Of a DNA stretch of 64,000 nt, positions 4,393 to 27,608 are shown in pieces. The stretch comes from Bifidobacterium ramosum (GTDB lineage: Bacteria; Actinomycetota; Actinomycetes; Actinomycetales; Bifidobacteriaceae): assembly GCF_009299505.1 (NCBI RefSeq), contig NZ_WBSM01000001.1, positions 496,001 through 560,000 of the forward strand, in the 5' to 3' direction. The notes below the pieces were generated by a model, which had not been told where the DNA came from, made no database searches, and saw nothing but the letters and a program-made list of their open reading frames with translations. The position numbers and the translations under genes were made by a program. Position 1 is the stretch's first letter. Each line of letters opens with the position of its first letter.

Positions 4393-4866
4393 CTAGGCGG
4401 CGATCACGCCGGACGTGCGCAACTGGGCGAGCAGCGCGTTGACCGTGGTCACGATCGCCGGAGCGGTCGCGTCGGCGGCGAGGTTCGCGACGGCCGCGCC
4501 CTTCTTCACGCCGCCCAACGCGGTGCCGGCCGCGGGCAGCGTGTACGGCGTGCCCGCGCCGATCGCGGTGCGGGCCGCGGCCGCGTCGGTCGCCTTCATC
4601 ACGGCCCGGCCGGTCACGGTTACACCCGTCAGCGTGTCCGCGGTCGGAGCTGTAGGAACGGCGGGGATGACGCCTTTGGCGAGCTTGTCGGCGGTGATGC
4701 CGCCCGCGAGCATCGCGTTCGTGACCGAACCCGCCGCGGGAGCGCCGCCGATGTCGACCGGATTGCCGTCAGCGTCGAATGCGGCGACCTGTTCGATGAG
4801 CTGCCCGGGTTCGGGCTTGTCCTGGTGCACGAACTGCACCTGAGCGTTCAATCCCATGACGATCAC
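4393..4866 (-). CDS. head fibre-like protein
   Basis: 157 residues if the GTG at 4866, which overlaps the capsid stop as GTGA, is used; an ATG at 4857 is an alternative. After a short VQFVHQDKPEPGQL start, the protein becomes alanine/threonine-rich with TADTLTGVTVTGRAVMKA, ARTAIGAGTPYTLPAAG and GGVKKGAAVANL. This resembles head fibre/decoration proteins (phi29 gp8.5-like) found next to capsid genes. It may decorate the capsid surface and aid adsorption. Confidence 0.72.
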   Translation of the reverse strand: MIVMGLNAQVQFVHQDKPEPGQLIEQVAAFDADGNPVDIGGAPAAGSVTNAMLAGGITADKLAKGVIPAVPTAPTADTLTGVTVTGRAVMKATDAAAARTAIGAGTPYTLPAAGTALGGVKKGAAVANLAADATAPAIVTTVNALLAQLRTSGVIAA

Positions 4867-5813
4867 GCTCCCGTGGTGCCGGCCGGCTGGATCACGTACG
4901 CCGGGAAGCGCTTGGTCTTGTCCGGCTGCACGTCGTTGATTGGGTTCGCGATCTGGAAGCCGACGCGGAACACGACGCGCATGGCCACGCAGTCCTGCTG
5001 CGCAAGGTTGAGCACGACCTTGCCGTCGTCGTCGGTGATGACCGCCTGGTCAAGCATCTTGTACGTGATGTCCTGACGGATACCGACCACGAAGTTCGAC
5101 CAGTCGGCGCCGAGCAGCAAGGCCTTGGTGGTGTCCCACGCGCCGTTCGTGACCTCGTTGAGACCAAATCCGTACAGGGTGGAAGGGGTGCCGGACGCGA
5201 GCGACGGCACGTAGATCGGCGAACCGTTCGCGTTACGCAGACCGATCAGCTGCCAGTTGAGGCCTGGCTGCGAGGCGAAACCGTTCATCGCGAAACCCTG
5301 CTCCGCGAGCTTCTGGCCCATCGACGCGACGTCCTTGGCGAGATCCTTGCCCTGCGTGAGCGTATTGCCCGCGGCGATGGCCTGCGGGATGATGCCGTCG
5401 GGGAACGAAGCGGGCTTGTCCACGCCGAACAGGGTCGCCTGATCCAGCTTGTAGCCGAGAGCCGCCGCCAGACGAGGCTGCACCTCGCTCCACAGCGGGA
5501 TGCCGGAATCGGCGATGACGGCCTCCGGAATCGGTACGATCGCGGCCATCTCCTCGGCCGTGATGCTCAGGCCGCTCCACTTCATCTTCGTGGTCTGCTT
5601 GAGACCGGTGTCGCCGCCGACCCAGTAGGCGAGCGGCTTGGAATCCAGCACCGGCTGAACGCGCGTACGCGTCGACATGCGGATCTGACGCATACGGGTC
5701 AGGGACACGGACGACTTCGGCGCATCCTGGATGATCTGGTTGGCGTACTCGGTGGGGATGAGACCACCGCCGAGATCACCGCTGGTGATGATGGAATTCA
5801 CGTTGGAAGCCAT
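4863..5813 (-). CDS. major capsid protein, HK97 fold
   Basis: 316 residues from ATG 5813. A GTG one codon upstream is possible but too close to the AAAGGA site. The N-terminal ITSGDLGGGLIPTEYANQIIQDAP, the E-loop-like VLDSKPLAYWVGGDTGLKQTT and the SGLSITAEEMAAIVPIPEAVIADS segment are typical of HK97-type capsid proteins of the phi-C31/Gp5 kind. The late VVFRVGFQIANPINDVQPDK also fits. It follows the scaffold gene; no separate protease is visible. Confidence 0.93.
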   Translation of the reverse strand: MASNVNSIITSGDLGGGLIPTEYANQIIQDAPKSSVSLTRMRQIRMSTRTRVQPVLDSKPLAYWVGGDTGLKQTTKMKWSGLSITAEEMAAIVPIPEAVIADSGIPLWSEVQPRLAAALGYKLDQATLFGVDKPASFPDGIIPQAIAAGNTLTQGKDLAKDVASMGQKLAEQGFAMNGFASQPGLNWQLIGLRNANGSPIYVPSLASGTPSTLYGFGLNEVTNGAWDTTKALLLGADWSNFVVGIRQDITYKMLDQAVITDDDGKVVLNLAQQDCVAMRVVFRVGFQIANPINDVQPDKTKRFPAYVIQPAGTTGA

Positions 5814-5844
5814 CACTAGTCCTTTCTAATCAATGAAAATCGTT

Positions 5845-6327
5845 CTATTTGTTTTGGAGGATCGAGTCACGGAGCCAATCGCCGGACGAACCGCCACCGT
5901 CGGGCAATGGTTTCGAAGGAGCGGCATGCACGACAGGCCGGGTTCTCTCCGCGATGTACTCGTTGATGGCCTTCGCATGCGCCTGCATCGCTTCGAGCGA
6001 ATCACCGACGATGAGATTCGCCGGCAAGCCGGATTCCTCCGCCACCTGCGAGCGCCATGCGGATGTCTGTTTTTCGGCCTTCAGCGTGTCGAGTTCCTTT
6101 TGGAGTTTCGCGGTGCGAGCTTCGGCCTTTTGGGCTTCGCTCATCTGCGATTCTTTGAGCTGTTGCAGTTCGTCGGCGGCTGCCTTGTTGTCCTTGGCGC
6201 GTTTCTCCCATTCGCGTGAGTGGGAGACGGCTTCGCGGTATTTGGCCTCCCAGTCCGTGGGCTTGGTCTCGCCGTGCGGTTCGGCCGTGTCCTGCGGCTG
6301 TTCGGTGGTGTTGGCTTCCTCTGCCAT
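5845..6327 (-). CDS. capsid scaffold protein
   Basis: 160 residues starting MAEEANTTEQPQDTAE at ATG 6327, preceded by a strong AGGAGG site. The open frame continues upstream through a tRNA gene, so the longer start is wrong. Composition is acidic at the N-terminus, then a long coiled coil (about residues 30-95, KYREAVSHSREWEKRAKDNK onwards), then a SGLPANLIVGDSLEAM helix and a GSSGDWLRDSI end. This is the usual form of a phage scaffold, directly before the capsid gene. Confidence 0.85.
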   Translation of the reverse strand: MAEEANTTEQPQDTAEPHGETKPTDWEAKYREAVSHSREWEKRAKDNKAAADELQQLKESQMSEAQKAEARTAKLQKELDTLKAEKQTSAWRSQVAEESGLPANLIVGDSLEAMQAHAKAINEYIAERTRPVVHAAPSKPLPDGGGSSGDWLRDSILQNK

Positions 6328-6399
6328 GGGTTCCTCCTGTTGGGTGTATGGGCCCGTTGCGGGCGTGAAAGAGGCCGCCCGTGCGAGCGGCGGGATGAG

Positions 6400-6480
6400 T
6401 GGTGGGTGCAGGATTCGAACCTGCGTGGCGTGTGCGGCCGCTTTACAGGCGGCTCCATTCGGCCTCTCTGGCAACCCACC
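6400..6480 (-). tRNA. tRNA-Tyr (GUA), prophage-encoded
   Basis: The acceptor stem GGTGGGT/ACCCACC, a GCCGC/GCGGC anticodon stem with loop CTGTAAA (anticodon GTA), a longer variable arm as expected for class II tRNA-Tyr, and a GGTTCGAATCC T-loop are all present. CCA is not encoded. It lies inside the late operon, between the MuF gene and the scaffold gene, in the same direction. Confidence 0.9.
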
Positions 6481-6505
6481 GGGGATTGGGGTATGATCGA
6501 AGATG

Positions 6506-6551
6506 TAAGCGCCCCCGGCATCGCCCTTTTTGGTGAAGCCCGAGGCGCTTA
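6506..6551. repeat. inverted repeat at the MuF stop codon
   Basis: 8-bp arms (TAAGCGCC at 6506-6513, GGCGCTTA at 6544-6551) enclose a GC-rich interior. The right arm includes the MuF stop codon. On the minus strand it lies just before the tRNA-Tyr gene. It could help process the tRNA or act as a weak terminator; no T-tract follows. Confidence 0.4.
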
Positions 6552-7781
6552 CTTGATTCGCAGCAGCTTGCCGCTCTTGGTGATGACGTATACGGCTCCG
6601 CGGCGGAAGCGATGGCTCCGGTTGATGAATTCGACGAGTTGCTCATCGGTTAGGTAGAGGCTCTCCGTATTGTCGAATATCAGTCTTGTCGCATCAGCTT
6701 TCTTGCTGGTGTTGCCGAGGTAGGAGTCTATGGTTCTGGCGGTTTTGGCGGTGTCCAGGGTTTTGATCTCCGTGCCGCCTCTCCAATCCGCGAGCCCGGC
6801 TCTTTCCATGACATGCGTCCGGGGGTTCTCGATTTCCTTGTAATCCACTTGGAAGTACGGTTTGATGCCGTGCATGCGGGCCCGTTCGGCGGTGCGTATC
6901 TCCTGCGCGCGGTTCTCCTCGGTCTCCTTTCTCAGGGCTTCGTTGGCGAACTCTATTGCCGGTTGTGTGCCGTCGTACAGCCATTGGCGGTCGCGCCAGT
7001 CCATTTCGTGAAGGATCTCCCTTGTGATCCATTGGTCGAACGTCAATGGCGTGGCCTTGTCGTTCTCCTTGGCGAGTGGATCCAGATAGGTCTGCTGGTA
7101 TCTGTCCTGTGTGAGGAGATCCTCGACCGTGCTGCGGCATGCCGTATAGCGTTTGTAGAGCGCTTCGGGGTCGTATCCCTCGATTTTCGGGTTCTTTTTG
7201 TCCCAGTTGGGGATGATCTCGCAGTCGCAGTCGGCGTGGTAGTCGTTCATGTCGCCGCCGGCGGATTCCGCCGACGCGTACACGAAGCCACGGGAGGCGA
7301 GCATGATGCAGAACGCGCAGGTCGGCCCCTGCGGCACGCGCGCATAGCGTGGCTTGCGTGGATCCTTCCTCGCGTTGGCGTGGATCGTGTCCCGTCCGGA
7401 CTGTTTGACCCACCGGTCGAGCGCGGAGTTGGCCCAGGGAAGGAACTCCTCGGGGTCGTCACCGAAGAGCACCCCCGCCTTCCACCGGATGCTCTTGCGC
7501 ATGGCGGTGTCGTCGAACGGAGCCGCCGCCTGGGCGTCGTATTCCTCGTCGAACCATTTGCGGCGCGTCCGTTCGTACCATTCGGCGGCGGCCGTGCTGG
7601 ACTGGTCGCCGTACTTCGCGGCGACCGCCGGCAACAAGTCCAGCAGCGCGTCACGTTGCAGGCTGGGCGGCAGATCCTGTATCTGCTGCCAGATCCTGCC
7701 CAGTTCCAGCCGGGCGAGCCTGACCGCCTCCGACTGCGCGGTCTGCAGCGCCGTCAGATCCGTCCGGGTTATTTGCGGCAT
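6549..7781 (-). CDS. MuF-like minor capsid protein with a nuclease-like C-terminal domain
   Basis: 410 residues. The N-terminal part is the actinophage MuF/minor head type: a helical start, C155-x2-C158 in GPTCAFC, then ASRGFVYASAESAGG and YHADCDCE (H182, C185, C187), probably metal-binding. After a charged helical linker (270-305) the C-terminal about 100 residues differ: E338 and K340 in GGTEIKTL, then SKKADATRLIFDN and VYVITKSGKLLRI at the end. This resembles CdiA C-terminal tRNA nuclease domains with a PD-(D/E)xK-like core. MuF proteins of temperate phages are known to carry polymorphic toxins. It overlaps the portal gene by 131 nt. The toxin call is a motif judgement. Confidence 0.8.
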   Translation of the reverse strand: MPQITRTDLTALQTAQSEAVRLARLELGRIWQQIQDLPPSLQRDALLDLLPAVAAKYGDQSSTAAAEWYERTRRKWFDEEYDAQAAAPFDDTAMRKSIRWKAGVLFGDDPEEFLPWANSALDRWVKQSGRDTIHANARKDPRKPRYARVPQGPTCAFCIMLASRGFVYASAESAGGDMNDYHADCDCEIIPNWDKKNPKIEGYDPEALYKRYTACRSTVEDLLTQDRYQQTYLDPLAKENDKATPLTFDQWITREILHEMDWRDRQWLYDGTQPAIEFANEALRKETEENRAQEIRTAERARMHGIKPYFQVDYKEIENPRTHVMERAGLADWRGGTEIKTLDTAKTARTIDSYLGNTSKKADATRLIFDNTESLYLTDEQLVEFINRSHRFRRGAVYVITKSGKLLRIK

Positions 7782-9213
7782 TGCCTGCGCTCCTTAACAG
7801 ATCGTTCAACACGCTCGACGCGGCCGCCTTGCGCTTGTCCGACAACAGGCGGGTGATGTCCGCGTCGGGGAAATTGAGTTTTTCAAGGATGACGCGACTG
7901 TTCGCGAGCCATGGAATCGCCTGCACCATCTTGAGCACCGCGTCGGCCATCGCCGCCTGCGAAGGCCGTTCAGGATCCCGCCAGTTGACCTTGAGATGTT
8001 TCAATGCCTCGTCATCCGGACTCGTACCGTTCAATACGGCCATGTCACGGGCGGCGCAGCATAATTGGCCGCCGAACGCGTCACAGGTGTTGCGAGCCTC
8101 GATGACCAATTCCGTCTCCGCGGCAGCGATCGCATCAGCACTGGACGGGCCTGAATCGGTCATGACGCCCAGCTGGGCCATCGGCACGCCGGTGGCGCCG
8201 CTGAACCTGCCGGCCAAGGTGCGCAGCATGTCGGAATGCGGCTGCATCGTCATCTGCGAGAACTGGCCGATCGAAGGCATCTGGCCGTCCTCGTCTCGGC
8301 CTATGACCAGCATCTTCGACAATGCGGCCTGCCATCCCGTCAAGGTCTTGCCGCTCACGCCGGCTGGCGGCTCGGCGCCGAGCAGGTAACGCTGCGGACT
8401 CGAATAGAATTCCGCGCTGACCTCCATGCGCAGCATCGTACGCACCGCCGTATCGGTCAGACTCATGACCTCGCGGTTGATACGGCTGCGGCCGAATGGC
8501 CTGTGCAGATCCTGATGGTAGGGCAGCACATACACGGGAACATGCCCCATGTTCGTCTCGCGCGGCTCGTCGGCAATATAACGGCCATTGGACAGCCTAT
8601 GGATACGCACCGTGAACCCGGGCTCGTACAGCATGATCTCCGAGGGAACCAGCGTATGGGTATCGGCGTAAATTCGCTGATCAATATCCAATATGGTCAT
8701 TGCGGCCGTGAGCCCATGGCGCTCCCAACTCCACAGGCCGGTCGCGTACAGAGCGGAATGGAATGACACGACTACTTTGGAGTCGATGCCATCCTCCGGC
8801 GTTGCGGATCGTACCGCGAGGAACGAGCATGAGTGGGTAAGGCCGGAGCGGGTCGCCTGAGGCAGCATGCCTATGAAATCGTTCGCCTGCAGTACCTCGT
8901 CCAAACCAAGCGGGTCCAAGTCGTCGCCGGTGGTCACGAACCCATCGAAGCGTACACGGTTGGCGAGCACGTCCACGGCCTTCGCGGGCCAGCCGACCAC
9001 CTCGTCCAGTTTCGCGCTTTCCAGACTGTCGGGCACCGCTATGCCCAGATTCTTCAGCCGGTTGCGCCCGTCGTAATAGGTGGAGCGCAGCATGTTGCGA
9101 TCCACCCTCATGGACCATTGCCGGCACATTGCCGTCCAATCCGCCTGAAAACCAGAGGGAAGATCATCGACGTCGGACATCATCTGCCACAACAGCGGGA
9201 TAGGTTCGCTCAT
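7651..9213 (-). CDS. portal protein
   Basis: 520 residues, SPP1 gp6-like. It forms the dodecameric DNA entry ring of the head. Typical portal stretches are WQMMSDVDDLPSGFQADWTAM, YYDGRNRLKNLGIAVPDSL, the central EVMSLTDTAVRTMLRMEVSAEFY, and FSGATGVPMAQLGVMTDSGPSSADAIAAAE, which matches the conserved portal stem/clip region. The C-terminus is low-complexity glycine/alanine. The start overlaps the terminase stop (ATGA), and the 3' end overlaps the MuF gene, an unusually long but clear overlap. Confidence 0.93.
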   Translation of the reverse strand: MSEPIPLLWQMMSDVDDLPSGFQADWTAMCRQWSMRVDRNMLRSTYYDGRNRLKNLGIAVPDSLESAKLDEVVGWPAKAVDVLANRVRFDGFVTTGDDLDPLGLDEVLQANDFIGMLPQATRSGLTHSCSFLAVRSATPEDGIDSKVVVSFHSALYATGLWSWERHGLTAAMTILDIDQRIYADTHTLVPSEIMLYEPGFTVRIHRLSNGRYIADEPRETNMGHVPVYVLPYHQDLHRPFGRSRINREVMSLTDTAVRTMLRMEVSAEFYSSPQRYLLGAEPPAGVSGKTLTGWQAALSKMLVIGRDEDGQMPSIGQFSQMTMQPHSDMLRTLAGRFSGATGVPMAQLGVMTDSGPSSADAIAAAETELVIEARNTCDAFGGQLCCAARDMAVLNGTSPDDEALKHLKVNWRDPERPSQAAMADAVLKMVQAIPWLANSRVILEKLNFPDADITRLLSDKRKAAASSVLNDLLRSAGNAANNPDGSDGAADRAVGGGQARPAGTGQDLAADTGSAAQPAT

Positions 9214-10673
9214 AACGCCACCGCCTTCGCTTTACGTCCCGGACGCCTTTTCGATGTGAACGCGCCGTGCAATGCCAACGTGACTGCCTGCAACGGGCTG
9301 ATGTCGATGTCCGAGCCTTTCTTGTTCCATGCGCGCATGCCGTTGGGACCCATGTCGCGCAGCGTGACGTTGCGGGCGGCCGAGTCGAGCTGGGGCTGCT
9401 GGTCGGCGGGCAGGTGCCACAGTGTTCCCGCGTGGATCATGTCGAGCATCCTTCCCGTGGCCGCTCCCAGGTCGCGCGTCTGCGTGACCGTGACCCTGAC
9501 GTGTCGTTTCTGCAGGTCGGGCACGAGGCTCATGGCGGGCGACTGCGTGTCGACCACGACCGCGCAGGTCTTCGGCCAGCGTTCCGCGAGCCATTCGACC
9601 GCCCATGCGATCCCGTTGCGTTTCACGTCCACGTACTCCTGCAGGTTCACCAGCGCGGTATCGTCCCCGTGGCGGACGGCGACGCCGATCGCCAACGCCG
9701 ACCGGTCGGGCGGCATGTCGAGCCCGTAGGCGACGCGCCCGTCGAGGTCGGGTTCCCTGACGACGCCGGCGTCCCATTGTTTCGGGTCGATCGCGTTCGC
9801 GGTGGCGTCCTCGTCCCAGATACCGAGGCATTCGCGGCGGAAGTTGTCGGCGGTGAACTGTCCGTACAGATTGAGGATGGATTCGTCGCTCGTGTGGTTC
9901 GGGTATGAGGGATTGGCCTTGCGCCATTGGCTGCGGTCGAGGGGGTCGCAGTCGCGGTCGGCGCTGAACTCCACGTACATCGTGTTCCTGACCTTGTGCG
10001 CGAGTGCTTCACTGCGGTGTCTGGCGAAGACCTCGCCTTCCATGTCGGGGGCGGGCGGCGTGCCCATGTAGATCGTCTGCGGGTTGTCGGCACGGTTCTG
10101 CGTCGGCAGCACGGCCGCGAGCGCGGAGTCGGACAGTTGCTGGGCCTCGTCCAGGACGATCAGGCCGACCTTCTTGAAGCCGCGGATCGCACCGTTCTCG
10201 CGGGCCTTGAACGCGAGCGTGCTGCCGTTGCGGAATTCGAAGCGCTCCTGCCCGGCGGCGGAGTGCACGCCCTTGACGGGGTCGATGTAGGGCAGCATCA
10301 GATCGTTGTACACGATCTCGTCGCGCATCGTCAGGAACGTGTCATGCGTGACGGAGAAGTGGTGCGTGGTCCAGATTGCCGTGAATCGCGGCTGCTGGAT
10401 GCATCGCTGGAACGGAATGAACCCGATGTCGTACGTTTTTCCCGCCTGCCGGGGGATGGAGATGTCGCCGTTGCGCGCGGCCCATTTGCCGTCGGCGCGT
10501 TTGGCGAGCAGCAGGCGGTTGATGTCGCGCTGCCAGTCGTCCAGGTCGAAGCCCAGGGAGCGGACGAACGCGTACAGAGCTGGTTCGGCGGTGCTCACGA
10601 TGCCGTCAGGGATGATCGTCTGCGCCGATCCGGTCACCCAGAGGCTCGTCGGCGACGTTGAGTGCTGTTGCAA
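9210..10673 (-). CDS. terminase large subunit
   Basis: 487 residues. The packaging ATPase shows a Walker A variant at 73-80 (IPRQAGKT), Walker B at 171-177 (LIVLDEA) and a coupling motif YMGTPPAPD. A C-terminal nuclease domain has acidic residues D319 (YGLDMPPDRSALAIG) and D375 (VVVDTQSPAM). The start is a TTG at 10673, chosen because an ideal AAGGAG site lies 7 nt upstream; it overlaps the small subunit gene by 68 nt. It pumps DNA into the prohead with the small subunit and portal. Confidence 0.95.
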   Translation of the reverse strand: MQQHSTSPTSLWVTGSAQTIIPDGIVSTAEPALYAFVRSLGFDLDDWQRDINRLLLAKRADGKWAARNGDISIPRQAGKTYDIGFIPFQRCIQQPRFTAIWTTHHFSVTHDTFLTMRDEIVYNDLMLPYIDPVKGVHSAAGQERFEFRNGSTLAFKARENGAIRGFKKVGLIVLDEAQQLSDSALAAVLPTQNRADNPQTIYMGTPPAPDMEGEVFARHRSEALAHKVRNTMYVEFSADRDCDPLDRSQWRKANPSYPNHTSDESILNLYGQFTADNFRRECLGIWDEDATANAIDPKQWDAGVVREPDLDGRVAYGLDMPPDRSALAIGVAVRHGDDTALVNLQEYVDVKRNGIAWAVEWLAERWPKTCAVVVDTQSPAMSLVPDLQKRHVRVTVTQTRDLGAATGRMLDMIHAGTLWHLPADQQPQLDSAARNVTLRDMGPNGMRAWNKKGSDIDISPLQAVTLALHGAFTSKRRPGRKAKAVAL

Positions 10674-26345: not shown

Positions 26346-27608
26346 ATGGCGAACGTCACCAGATACCAGACCGTGAACGGCATCCGCTACCGGGTGCGCT
26401 ACCGGAAGCCCGACGGCACGCAGACCGACAAGCGCGGGTTCAAACGCAAGATCGACGCCGAGACGTGGGCGGCCGAACACGTGACCATCGCCAAGGCCGC
26501 GGGCAGCTACGTCGACCCCGAGGCCGGCAAACGGTTCATAGGCGACCTGCACGAGCAGTGGACGGCGGAGAAGCGGCCGTTCTGGAAACCGGTGTCGACG
26601 GCGAACATGGACAACGCGTGGACGATCCACTGCGAGGCCAAATGGGCGGACAGGCGCGTCGGCGACATCACCCGCGCCGAAGTCCAGGCATGGATCGGCC
26701 GCATCGTCGAAACGGCCGGCGCACCCTCCGTGAGCCGACCCTATCAGATCCTCAACGGCATCTGCCAGATCGCCGTACGCGACAAGCTCATCGCCCGGAA
26801 CCCATGCGAGGGCATCGAACTGCCCCGGCTCCCGTCCCGGAAGGAACGCCGCGTTTACCTGACCATACCCCGGCTGCTCGCGTTCGCCGACGAGGCCGCC
26901 GACTGCCGCGTATTGGGGGAGGAGCGGCGCGCGCTGATCCTGCTGCTCGGCTTCTGCGGATTGCGTTGGGGCGAGGCCGCCGCATTGGAGCCGCGCGACC
27001 TCGACTTCGACCGTGGCGTGCTGCATGTGCGTCGTAACCTCGTGTACGTCAACAAGGATCTCGGCTGGGTCGAGGGCACGCCGAAAAGCCACGAACGACG
27101 GGACGTGCCCATGCCCCGCATCGTCATGGACGCGCTCAAACCCATCTGCGAGCGCCGCGATGCGGGGGAGCGCGTGTTCCGTGACGCGCATGGCGGGCCG
27201 ATCCGCAAGCAGAGCCTCGCCCGCACGAGCGGCTGGTGGACGCGCACGCTCGTCCGGTTGGGATGGGGCGAGGACGATTGGCCGGTGCCGCACGACCTGC
27301 GGCACACGGCCGCCTCATTGGCGGTGCACGCCGGCGCGAACGTCAAGGCGCTGCAGCGGATGCTCGGCCACAAGAACGCGAGCATGACGCTGGACGTGTA
27401 CGCCGACCTGTTCGACAGCGATCTCATGGACGTGGCCCGCATGCTCGACGCGGCCGTGCAGGTCGAGACCGGCGGCGGCACCACCTCCGAGGAATGTGGG
27501 CAAAATGTGGGCAAACCCGCGTCCGAGACGGTGAAAACCGTTGAAACCCCAGTGTTTCCAACGGTTCCCGAAACCCGTGCCTCTTCTCGAAGCTCAAGGA
27601 CGCACTGA
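26346..27608 (+). CDS. int: tyrosine recombinase integrase
   Basis: 420 residues from ATG 26346 behind AGGTGG. An arm-binding region (TVNGIRYRVRYRKPDGTQTDKRGF) and a core-binding SAM-like domain (EQWTAEKRPFWKPVS to QIAVRDKLIARNPCEGI) precede the catalytic domain with R207 (GLRWGE), K247, H316-x-x-R319 (HDLRH), H342 (LGHK) and Y352 (DVYADLF). A tail of about 65 residues follows the tyrosine. All catalytic residues are present, so it should be active. It marks the right end of the prophage. Confidence 0.96.
   Translation: MANVTRYQTVNGIRYRVRYRKPDGTQTDKRGFKRKIDAETWAAEHVTIAKAAGSYVDPEAGKRFIGDLHEQWTAEKRPFWKPVSTANMDNAWTIHCEAKWADRRVGDITRAEVQAWIGRIVETAGAPSVSRPYQILNGICQIAVRDKLIARNPCEGIELPRLPSRKERRVYLTIPRLLAFADEAADCRVLGEERRALILLLGFCGLRWGEAAALEPRDLDFDRGVLHVRRNLVYVNKDLGWVEGTPKSHERRDVPMPRIVMDALKPICERRDAGERVFRDAHGGPIRKQSLARTSGWWTRTLVRLGWGEDDWPVPHDLRHTAASLAVHAGANVKALQRMLGHKNASMTLDVYADLFDSDLMDVARMLDAAVQVETGGGTTSEECGQNVGKPASETVKTVETPVFPTVPETRASSRSSRTH

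Follow-up and report, generated by a model that had tools for sequence, protein, structure and literature searches.

Immunity to delivered polymorphic toxins is currently treated as a protein matter, and annotation seeks a small ORF behind the toxin gene. In a prophage of Bifidobacterium ramosum, the place behind the gene of a head protein with a putative toxin tail is taken instead by a candidate RNA gene on the opposite strand. The question raised by this locus is what serves as its immunity factor. The favored answer, given a probability of about 0.6, is that the tail is a phage-delivered tRNase and that the RNA is its immunity factor; the fold, the exchange of tails, the promoter-like site, the hairpin, the pairing of RNA families with tail classes and the orphan copies were computed.

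The head protein and its nuclease tail

The window is the whole analyzed stretch of 64,000 nucleotides (contig NZ_WBSM01000001.1), and its features are listed in Table 1. The genes of the head module are arranged in the order terminase-like, portal, toxin, tRNA-Tyr, scaffold and capsid. The plus-strand reading of the toxin gene meets an internal stop, and the coding strand is minus. The presence of the head module and an integrase on one contig identifies a temperate phage (prophage). The MuF polymorphic toxins, in the part of the study of Jamet et al. (2017, PMC5576092) used here, are head proteins encoded beside the portal gene of temperate phages and bear an exchangeable toxin tail. The same was found here: the head protein gene lies directly downstream of the portal gene, and residues 273–410, with a CdiA-CT fold, form a C-terminal toxin-domain extension of at least 100 aa. 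Several records of phage relatives carry the annotation MuF-like or head maturation protease, and we infer that VG15 corresponds to MuF4. The nearest named protein was from B. tissieri (60%).

Table 1. Positions of the toxin gene, the candidate RNA gene and the surrounding prophage genes in the window.
Feature	Position	Strand	Basis
VG15/MuF-like head protein with C-terminal nuclease tail, 410 aa	6549..7781	-	ORF, PF25310, relatives
VG15 domain, residues 4-215	7137..7772	-	Pfam PF25310 E 2.8e-69
PD-(D/E)xK-like nuclease tail, residues 273-410; conserved E294, D332, E338, K340	6552..6965	-	
Candidate RNA gene, ~50-60 nt, extended -10 to U-rich end	6492-6563	+	-10, hairpin, R1 model
Candidate -10, TATGAT	6492..6497	+	score 7.9, p 0.055 alone; class A median 9.4
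Hairpin of candidate immunity RNA	6505..6552	+	MFE -29.9, z -5.4; family covariation
RNA model R1 match, including the U-rich end, which lies in the last toxin codons	6504..6563	+	71.2 bits; copy belongs to training set
tRNA-Tyr (gta), in head operon between RNA gene and scaffold gene	6399..6480	-	ARAGORN; Rfam RF00005 54 bits
Head scaffolding protein (start set at ATG behind ribosome-binding-like site; listed ORF begins 6474)	5845..6330	-	phrog_9857 E 2.4e-44 from residue 47 of longer ORF
Major capsid protein	4863..5816	-	PF05065 E 7.5e-32
Portal protein	7651..9213	-	phrog_104, PF05133
Terminase large subunit	9210..10673	-	Pfam matches slightly below cut-off
Phage integrase, probably of the same prophage	26346..27608	+	PF00589 E 2.7e-21

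The fold of the tail matched that of CdiA-CT 1026b (4g6v) at a computed identity of 16%. The active-site acidic residues and the lysine occur in the PD-(D/E)xK CdiA-CT order E294, D332, E338 and K340; in a 36-row family alignment E294 was invariant and the other three were each at least 90% conserved, which was above chance. The earlier note had described a MuF-type capsid protein with a CdiA-like nuclease tail and had named E338-I-K340, SKKADATRLIFDN (359–371) and VYVITKSGKLLRI (397–409). All of these residues were recovered, and the VG15 match and the tail fold support the description. The CdiA_C profile (PF18451) found nothing in the window's own genome, and class A relatives in three other genomes (G014, G030, G060) matched it at 3e-4 to 6e-4, below the cut-off. 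Moreover, the tail matched no family in Pfam at E≤1, no family in NCBIfam and no PDB sequence at E≤5, and its best PHROGs match was at chance level (0.15); the label CdiA-like is thus not demonstrable from the tail's own sequence.

The PD-(D/E)xK tRNases CdiA-CT Bp1026b and E479 (PDB 4G6V, 5J4A), as far as the portion of PMC9086364 used here describes them, share the fold and the E...D...[ED/S]xK order with the tail. They differ in contact-dependent delivery and in a protein immunity factor, CdiI, whereas the present tail belongs to a phage head, has no CdiI-like ORF and is 16% identical. The same portion of that source places a DNase, TA271, in the CdiA-CT fold, and its E177, D198, S209 and K211 were equated to the tail residues by order and not by superposition. 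In the favored reading, the tail is a PD-(D/E)xK nuclease, most likely a tRNase, with tRNA as the presumed target.

The tails proved to be exchanged among related loci, a comparison that the earlier note had proposed, and were not uniform. L091 and L115 were 99% identical in the VG15 region and 93% over 300 nt beginning at the tRNA, but identity fell to 42% for the tail and 45% for the slot (toxin stop to tRNA). Likewise, a class A and a class B locus (L092 and L076) were 95% identical in the VG15 region and 94% from the tRNA on, but 25% in the tail and 60% in the slot; by this measure, unrelated slots reach 45–60%. Judged from these sequence comparisons, the tail and the slot are swapped as one unit. 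Furthermore, VG15 relatives bear CdiA_C, Tox-PL, EndoU or ADP-ribosyltransferase-type domains, or no tail. This variety and the exchange argue against a virion nuclease or processing domain that the phage itself needs and that is not a toxin, a reading which is highly improbable, although PHROGs calls related families 'head maturation protease' and PD-(D/E)xK enzymes process DNA too, as stated in the part of PMC9086364 used here.

A candidate RNA gene in the immunity slot

In the part of PMC5576092 used here, small downstream ORFs were proposed as immunity genes for 89.4% of 191 MuF toxins, and a MuF4 EndoU toxin of Bifidobacterium bifidum was named; a small ORF in the slot is usual there but not defining, whereas the slot studied here holds a candidate RNA gene. 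A coupled ORF of 63–136 aa, starting at −20 to +30 of the toxin stop, was present in all 26 VG15 controls with other long tails and in 6/15 short or fragmentary controls. The PD-(D/E)xK set comprised 29 non-redundant loci from 61 (17 of class A, 7 of class B and 5 of class C) and was compared with 41 controls; the sampling covered mainly Bifidobacterium, plus few other Actinomycetota and viral contigs. Only 9/29 of these loci had a frame of at least 55 aa in the slot (P 2e-8 against 26/26), and several such frames run through or into the scaffold gene. The window slot holds one 126-aa frame from +28, which runs into the scaffold gene. In the PD-(D/E)xK slots, a hairpin directly follows the stop and is followed by a −10 element read on the opposite strand. 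VG15 was found in the toxin frame at 24/29 loci and in another frame only in L107 and L119; it was undetected in L112, L132 and L133, so that other head proteins with such a tail may have the slot as well. An RNA gene appears to occupy the slot if the tail is a nuclease of tRNA-binding fold and, within this sample, mostly only then.

Promoter-like elements were scored in the 120 nt past the stop with one fixed generic matrix, after the pattern had been spotted by eye. The reverse-strand −10 score had medians of 9.4, 7.9 and 8.5 in classes A, B and C, respectively, against 4.7 in the 41 controls (P 3.6e-9), whose mostly coding slots may depress their scores. Scores of at least 6 were obtained in 25/29 PD-(D/E)xK loci (all except L105, L035, L112 and L133) and in 15/41 controls. 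With shuffles made within each slot, p≤0.05 was reached by 14/29 loci and 0/41 controls. The forward-strand −10 scores did not differ between loci and controls (P 0.36).

The predicted +1 of the window RNA falls at 6503–6505, at the hairpin base, and the 3′ arm overlaps the toxin stop codon (6549–6551). Of the 26 loci folded from the predicted start, 23 had their first paired base no more than 3 nt away from it. Hairpin z was ≤−3.4 in 16/16 class A and ≤−3.6 in 5/5 class C loci; class B hairpins were weak, with z≤−3 in 1/5 (z −4.0), and the L065 sequence is incomplete. With a fixed 60-nt window, z≤−3 was obtained in 15/26 loci and 1/41 controls. The U-rich stretch past the hairpin corresponds to the toxin's final codons and stop read in reverse complement, and it resembles a plain terminator in L119, L041 and L033.

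Covariation was examined in 15 class A RNAs, several of them close pairs, ranging from Bifidobacterium to Slackia and a MAG labelled Clostridia. Both sides had changed in 12/18 pairs, giving 30 cells; 0/500 shuffles reached this, and slid versions of the structure gave 3–9 cells. The measure 'further pair types' was not above shuffles (106/500). On the reverse strand, G.U cells outnumbered A.C cells (22 vs 9), as expected if the reverse strand is the RNA.

These results also bear on the reading that the hairpin does no more than end the late operon, as a terminator or mRNA 3′ end, with the reverse −10 as a by-product and the toxin lacking cis immunity. The sense strand is indeed terminator-like as well in some copies (L109, L124). 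Against this stand the strand-specific −10 excess, the −10/hairpin spacing, the G.U excess, the family-specific cores and the orphan copies with promoters described below; moreover, a terminator ahead of the scaffold and capsid genes would be costly. This reading is considered very unlikely.

RNA families and their toxin-free copies

RNA models were prepared for class A (R1), class C (R2, with one orphan copy in training) and class B (R3); R1 was run over 71 sources and 30 more, and R2 and R3 over 81 each. Among toxin loci, R1 exceeded 20 bits in class A only (12/17 non-redundant; L109, L115, L119, L121 and L124 were missed), R2 matched class C (5/5) and L082 only, and R3 matched class B only (3/7; L035, L041, L076 and L112 were missed). 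No cross-hits between classes occurred, and no control was matched except L082, with L055 at 14.9 bits with R1. None of the three models fitted 9/29 PD-(D/E)xK loci. Most of the matched toxin loci had trained the models, and the informative results are the lack of cross-hits and control matches and the new places found.

Matches to R1, R2 and R3 were obtained in 26, 9 and 11 of 112 Bifidobacterium genomes, respectively (E≤0.01; the E-values are rough and the weakest matches are probably chance). Copies were called orphans if no tail or VG15 frame lay within roughly 1.5 kb of them. A-type orphans were found in G111 (62 bits), G023 (57), G042 (45, and 40 at a second site) and G074 (33), and at one place in G019, G020, G038, G041 and G061 (31–37). 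C-type orphans occurred in G042 (82 bits, in training), G060 (67), G041 (60), G012 (49 and 44), G013 (37) and G023 (32), the last about 1.2 kb from the A-type copy of the same genome. B-type orphans occurred in G003 (62 bits), G097 (43) and, weakly, G034 (24). A VG15 match was absent from seven RNA-bearing genomes (G020, G023, G038, G041, G042, G061, G111) in a search that covered VG15 among head proteins. In addition, the −10 element was enriched upstream of 19 copies, namely the orphans, with one of the five orthologous copies, plus L183, L193 and L194 (p≤0.05 in 7, ≤0.1 in 13; combined P 6e-9).

The B core CGAACCCGTTATTGGCTCT was identical in L194 and L065 despite different outer stems; the conserved B core CGAACCCGUUAUUGGCUCU (L065, L194) and the conserved C core CUUGAAAUAACA with GCGGGAUUGGCUCCC (L078, G042) sit under varying outer stems. 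Such an arrangement would fit recognition by a protein. The B-type core of L065, L125, L126, L191, L193 and L194 contains CGAACCC, a sequence that occurs in the 3′ half of many tRNA T-arms, and this core is possibly a T-arm mimic.

The main rival is type I-like control, in which the reverse-strand RNA would base-pair with the toxin mRNA at its 3′ end, lowering toxin synthesis in lysogens, with no binding to the toxin protein. Some type I toxin–antitoxin systems have a 3′-overlapping antisense RNA, and an antisense RNA gene over the toxin 3′ end in a prophage is also what is seen here, where the RNA overlaps the stop and last codons. Hairpins with conserved loops are usual in antisense pairs as well. 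However, the toxin here is not a small hydrophobic protein but a 410-aa head-protein nuclease, and the RNA exists as orphans. These toxin-free copies keep core, hairpin and promoter, and antisense would be useless against a delivered protein, although an orphan antisense RNA could still act on the mRNA of an incoming phage. The B core shared under differing stems and the ORF in the slot of sister phages also speak against this rival, which is regarded as unlikely.

Under the favored reading of an immunity RNA, the toxin would be a MuF-type polymorphic toxin with a PD-(D/E)xK tail that is carried by the virion and brought into the next cell with DNA entry. The immunity factor would be a hairpin RNA of ~50–60 nt from a small opposite-strand gene just behind the toxin gene, presumably transcribed there. 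Most likely, the RNA would inhibit the RNA-binding nuclease tail by attaching to it, and in the simplest reading it would sit in the substrate site. Lysogens, and bystanders with orphan copies, would thereby be protected. If this binding model is right, an RNA antitoxin against a ribonuclease-type toxin would be common to this locus and to type III toxin–antitoxin systems (ToxIN). By contrast, ToxI is a tandem-repeat RNA co-transcribed with its toxin, and the present RNA is a single downstream hairpin on the opposite strand, paired with a delivered toxin. The open-access literature searched, covered in part, yielded no polymorphic, MuF or CDI toxin with RNA immunity. It is somewhat better than an even guess that several hairpin-RNA families, each neutralizing its own phage-delivered PD-(D/E)xK nuclease, move together with the toxin tail and accumulate as orphans and arrays.

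Orphan immunity gene arrays of T6SS and T7SS have been described (e.g., PMC5361080 and PMC9484751, in the parts used here). Toxin-free copies, several types side by side and displaced older modules are common to those arrays and to the RNAs found here; the arrays consist of protein genes, whereas the Bifidobacterium copies are RNA genes. The balance tips slightly towards regarding the orphans and arrays in Bifidobacterium chromosomes, one of them at a CRISPR array end, as the RNA counterpart of orphan immunity-protein islands. If the nuclease branch does use small RNAs, some seemingly immunity-less toxins do have an immunity factor, and orphan protection in gut bacteria escapes protein searches. 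The pairing of toxin and RNA would then reach from intracellular modules to phage-carried weapons between cells. Moreover, the toxin–RNA pairs are small and open to direct testing.

Neighboring tRNA genes and individual loci

A tRNA gene lay within 650 nt in 15/29 PD-(D/E)xK loci and 2/41 controls. By class, it was present in 11/17 of A (9 Tyr), 1/7 of B (Cys) and 3/5 of C (Tyr), at positions +61 to +154. This excess favors the reading that the tRNA-Tyr is the antidote: the toxin would cut host tRNA-Tyr, the co-transcribed phage tRNA would replace it, and the hairpin would serve the processing or stability of the sense mRNA. However, six class A loci (L108, L109, L118, L119, L121 and L124) have no tRNA, yet they keep the hairpin and the reverse −10, which faces the opposite direction. 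Furthermore, nearly the same tRNA and downstream DNA accompany different tails, and orphans of all three types are without an intact tRNA, except L183 and L182. The tRNA as antidote is thus quite unlikely; beside an immunity RNA, it may add rescue of depleted tRNA.

Several single loci are described here. In G011 (L082/L183), a C-type RNA stands after an EndoU-tailed VG15 gene and its ORF and before a tRNA, and looks like a displaced older immunity module. In G042 (L156:1500–1745), three RNA hairpins lie in tandem in one intergenic region, two of A-type (45 and 22 bits) and one of C-type, between a predicted Clp-like ATPase gene and another gene, with no toxin nearby. In G111 (L151:507–1690), an A-type RNA gene with a −10 and a tRNA-Tyr remnant lies behind the last of 17 CRISPR repeats; the repeat spacing is 61–62, and the RNA sits as if it were a final spacer of excess length, with a degenerate repeat after it. 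In five Bifidobacterium genomes, an A-type RNA whose inner part is enlarged (L158–L161, L164) occupies apparently one orthologous place, which would point to its retention by the host over long times. Records under two genera, Granulicoccus phenolivorans (L105) and Alloscardovia omnicolens (L106), share the same toxin end and slot, so one record may be contaminated. As for the tRNA genes themselves, related loci carry tRNA-Tyr, while L038 has tRNA-Cys, L107 tRNA-Leu, L105 a tRNA-like gene with a four-base anticodon call, and L076 a degenerate copy.
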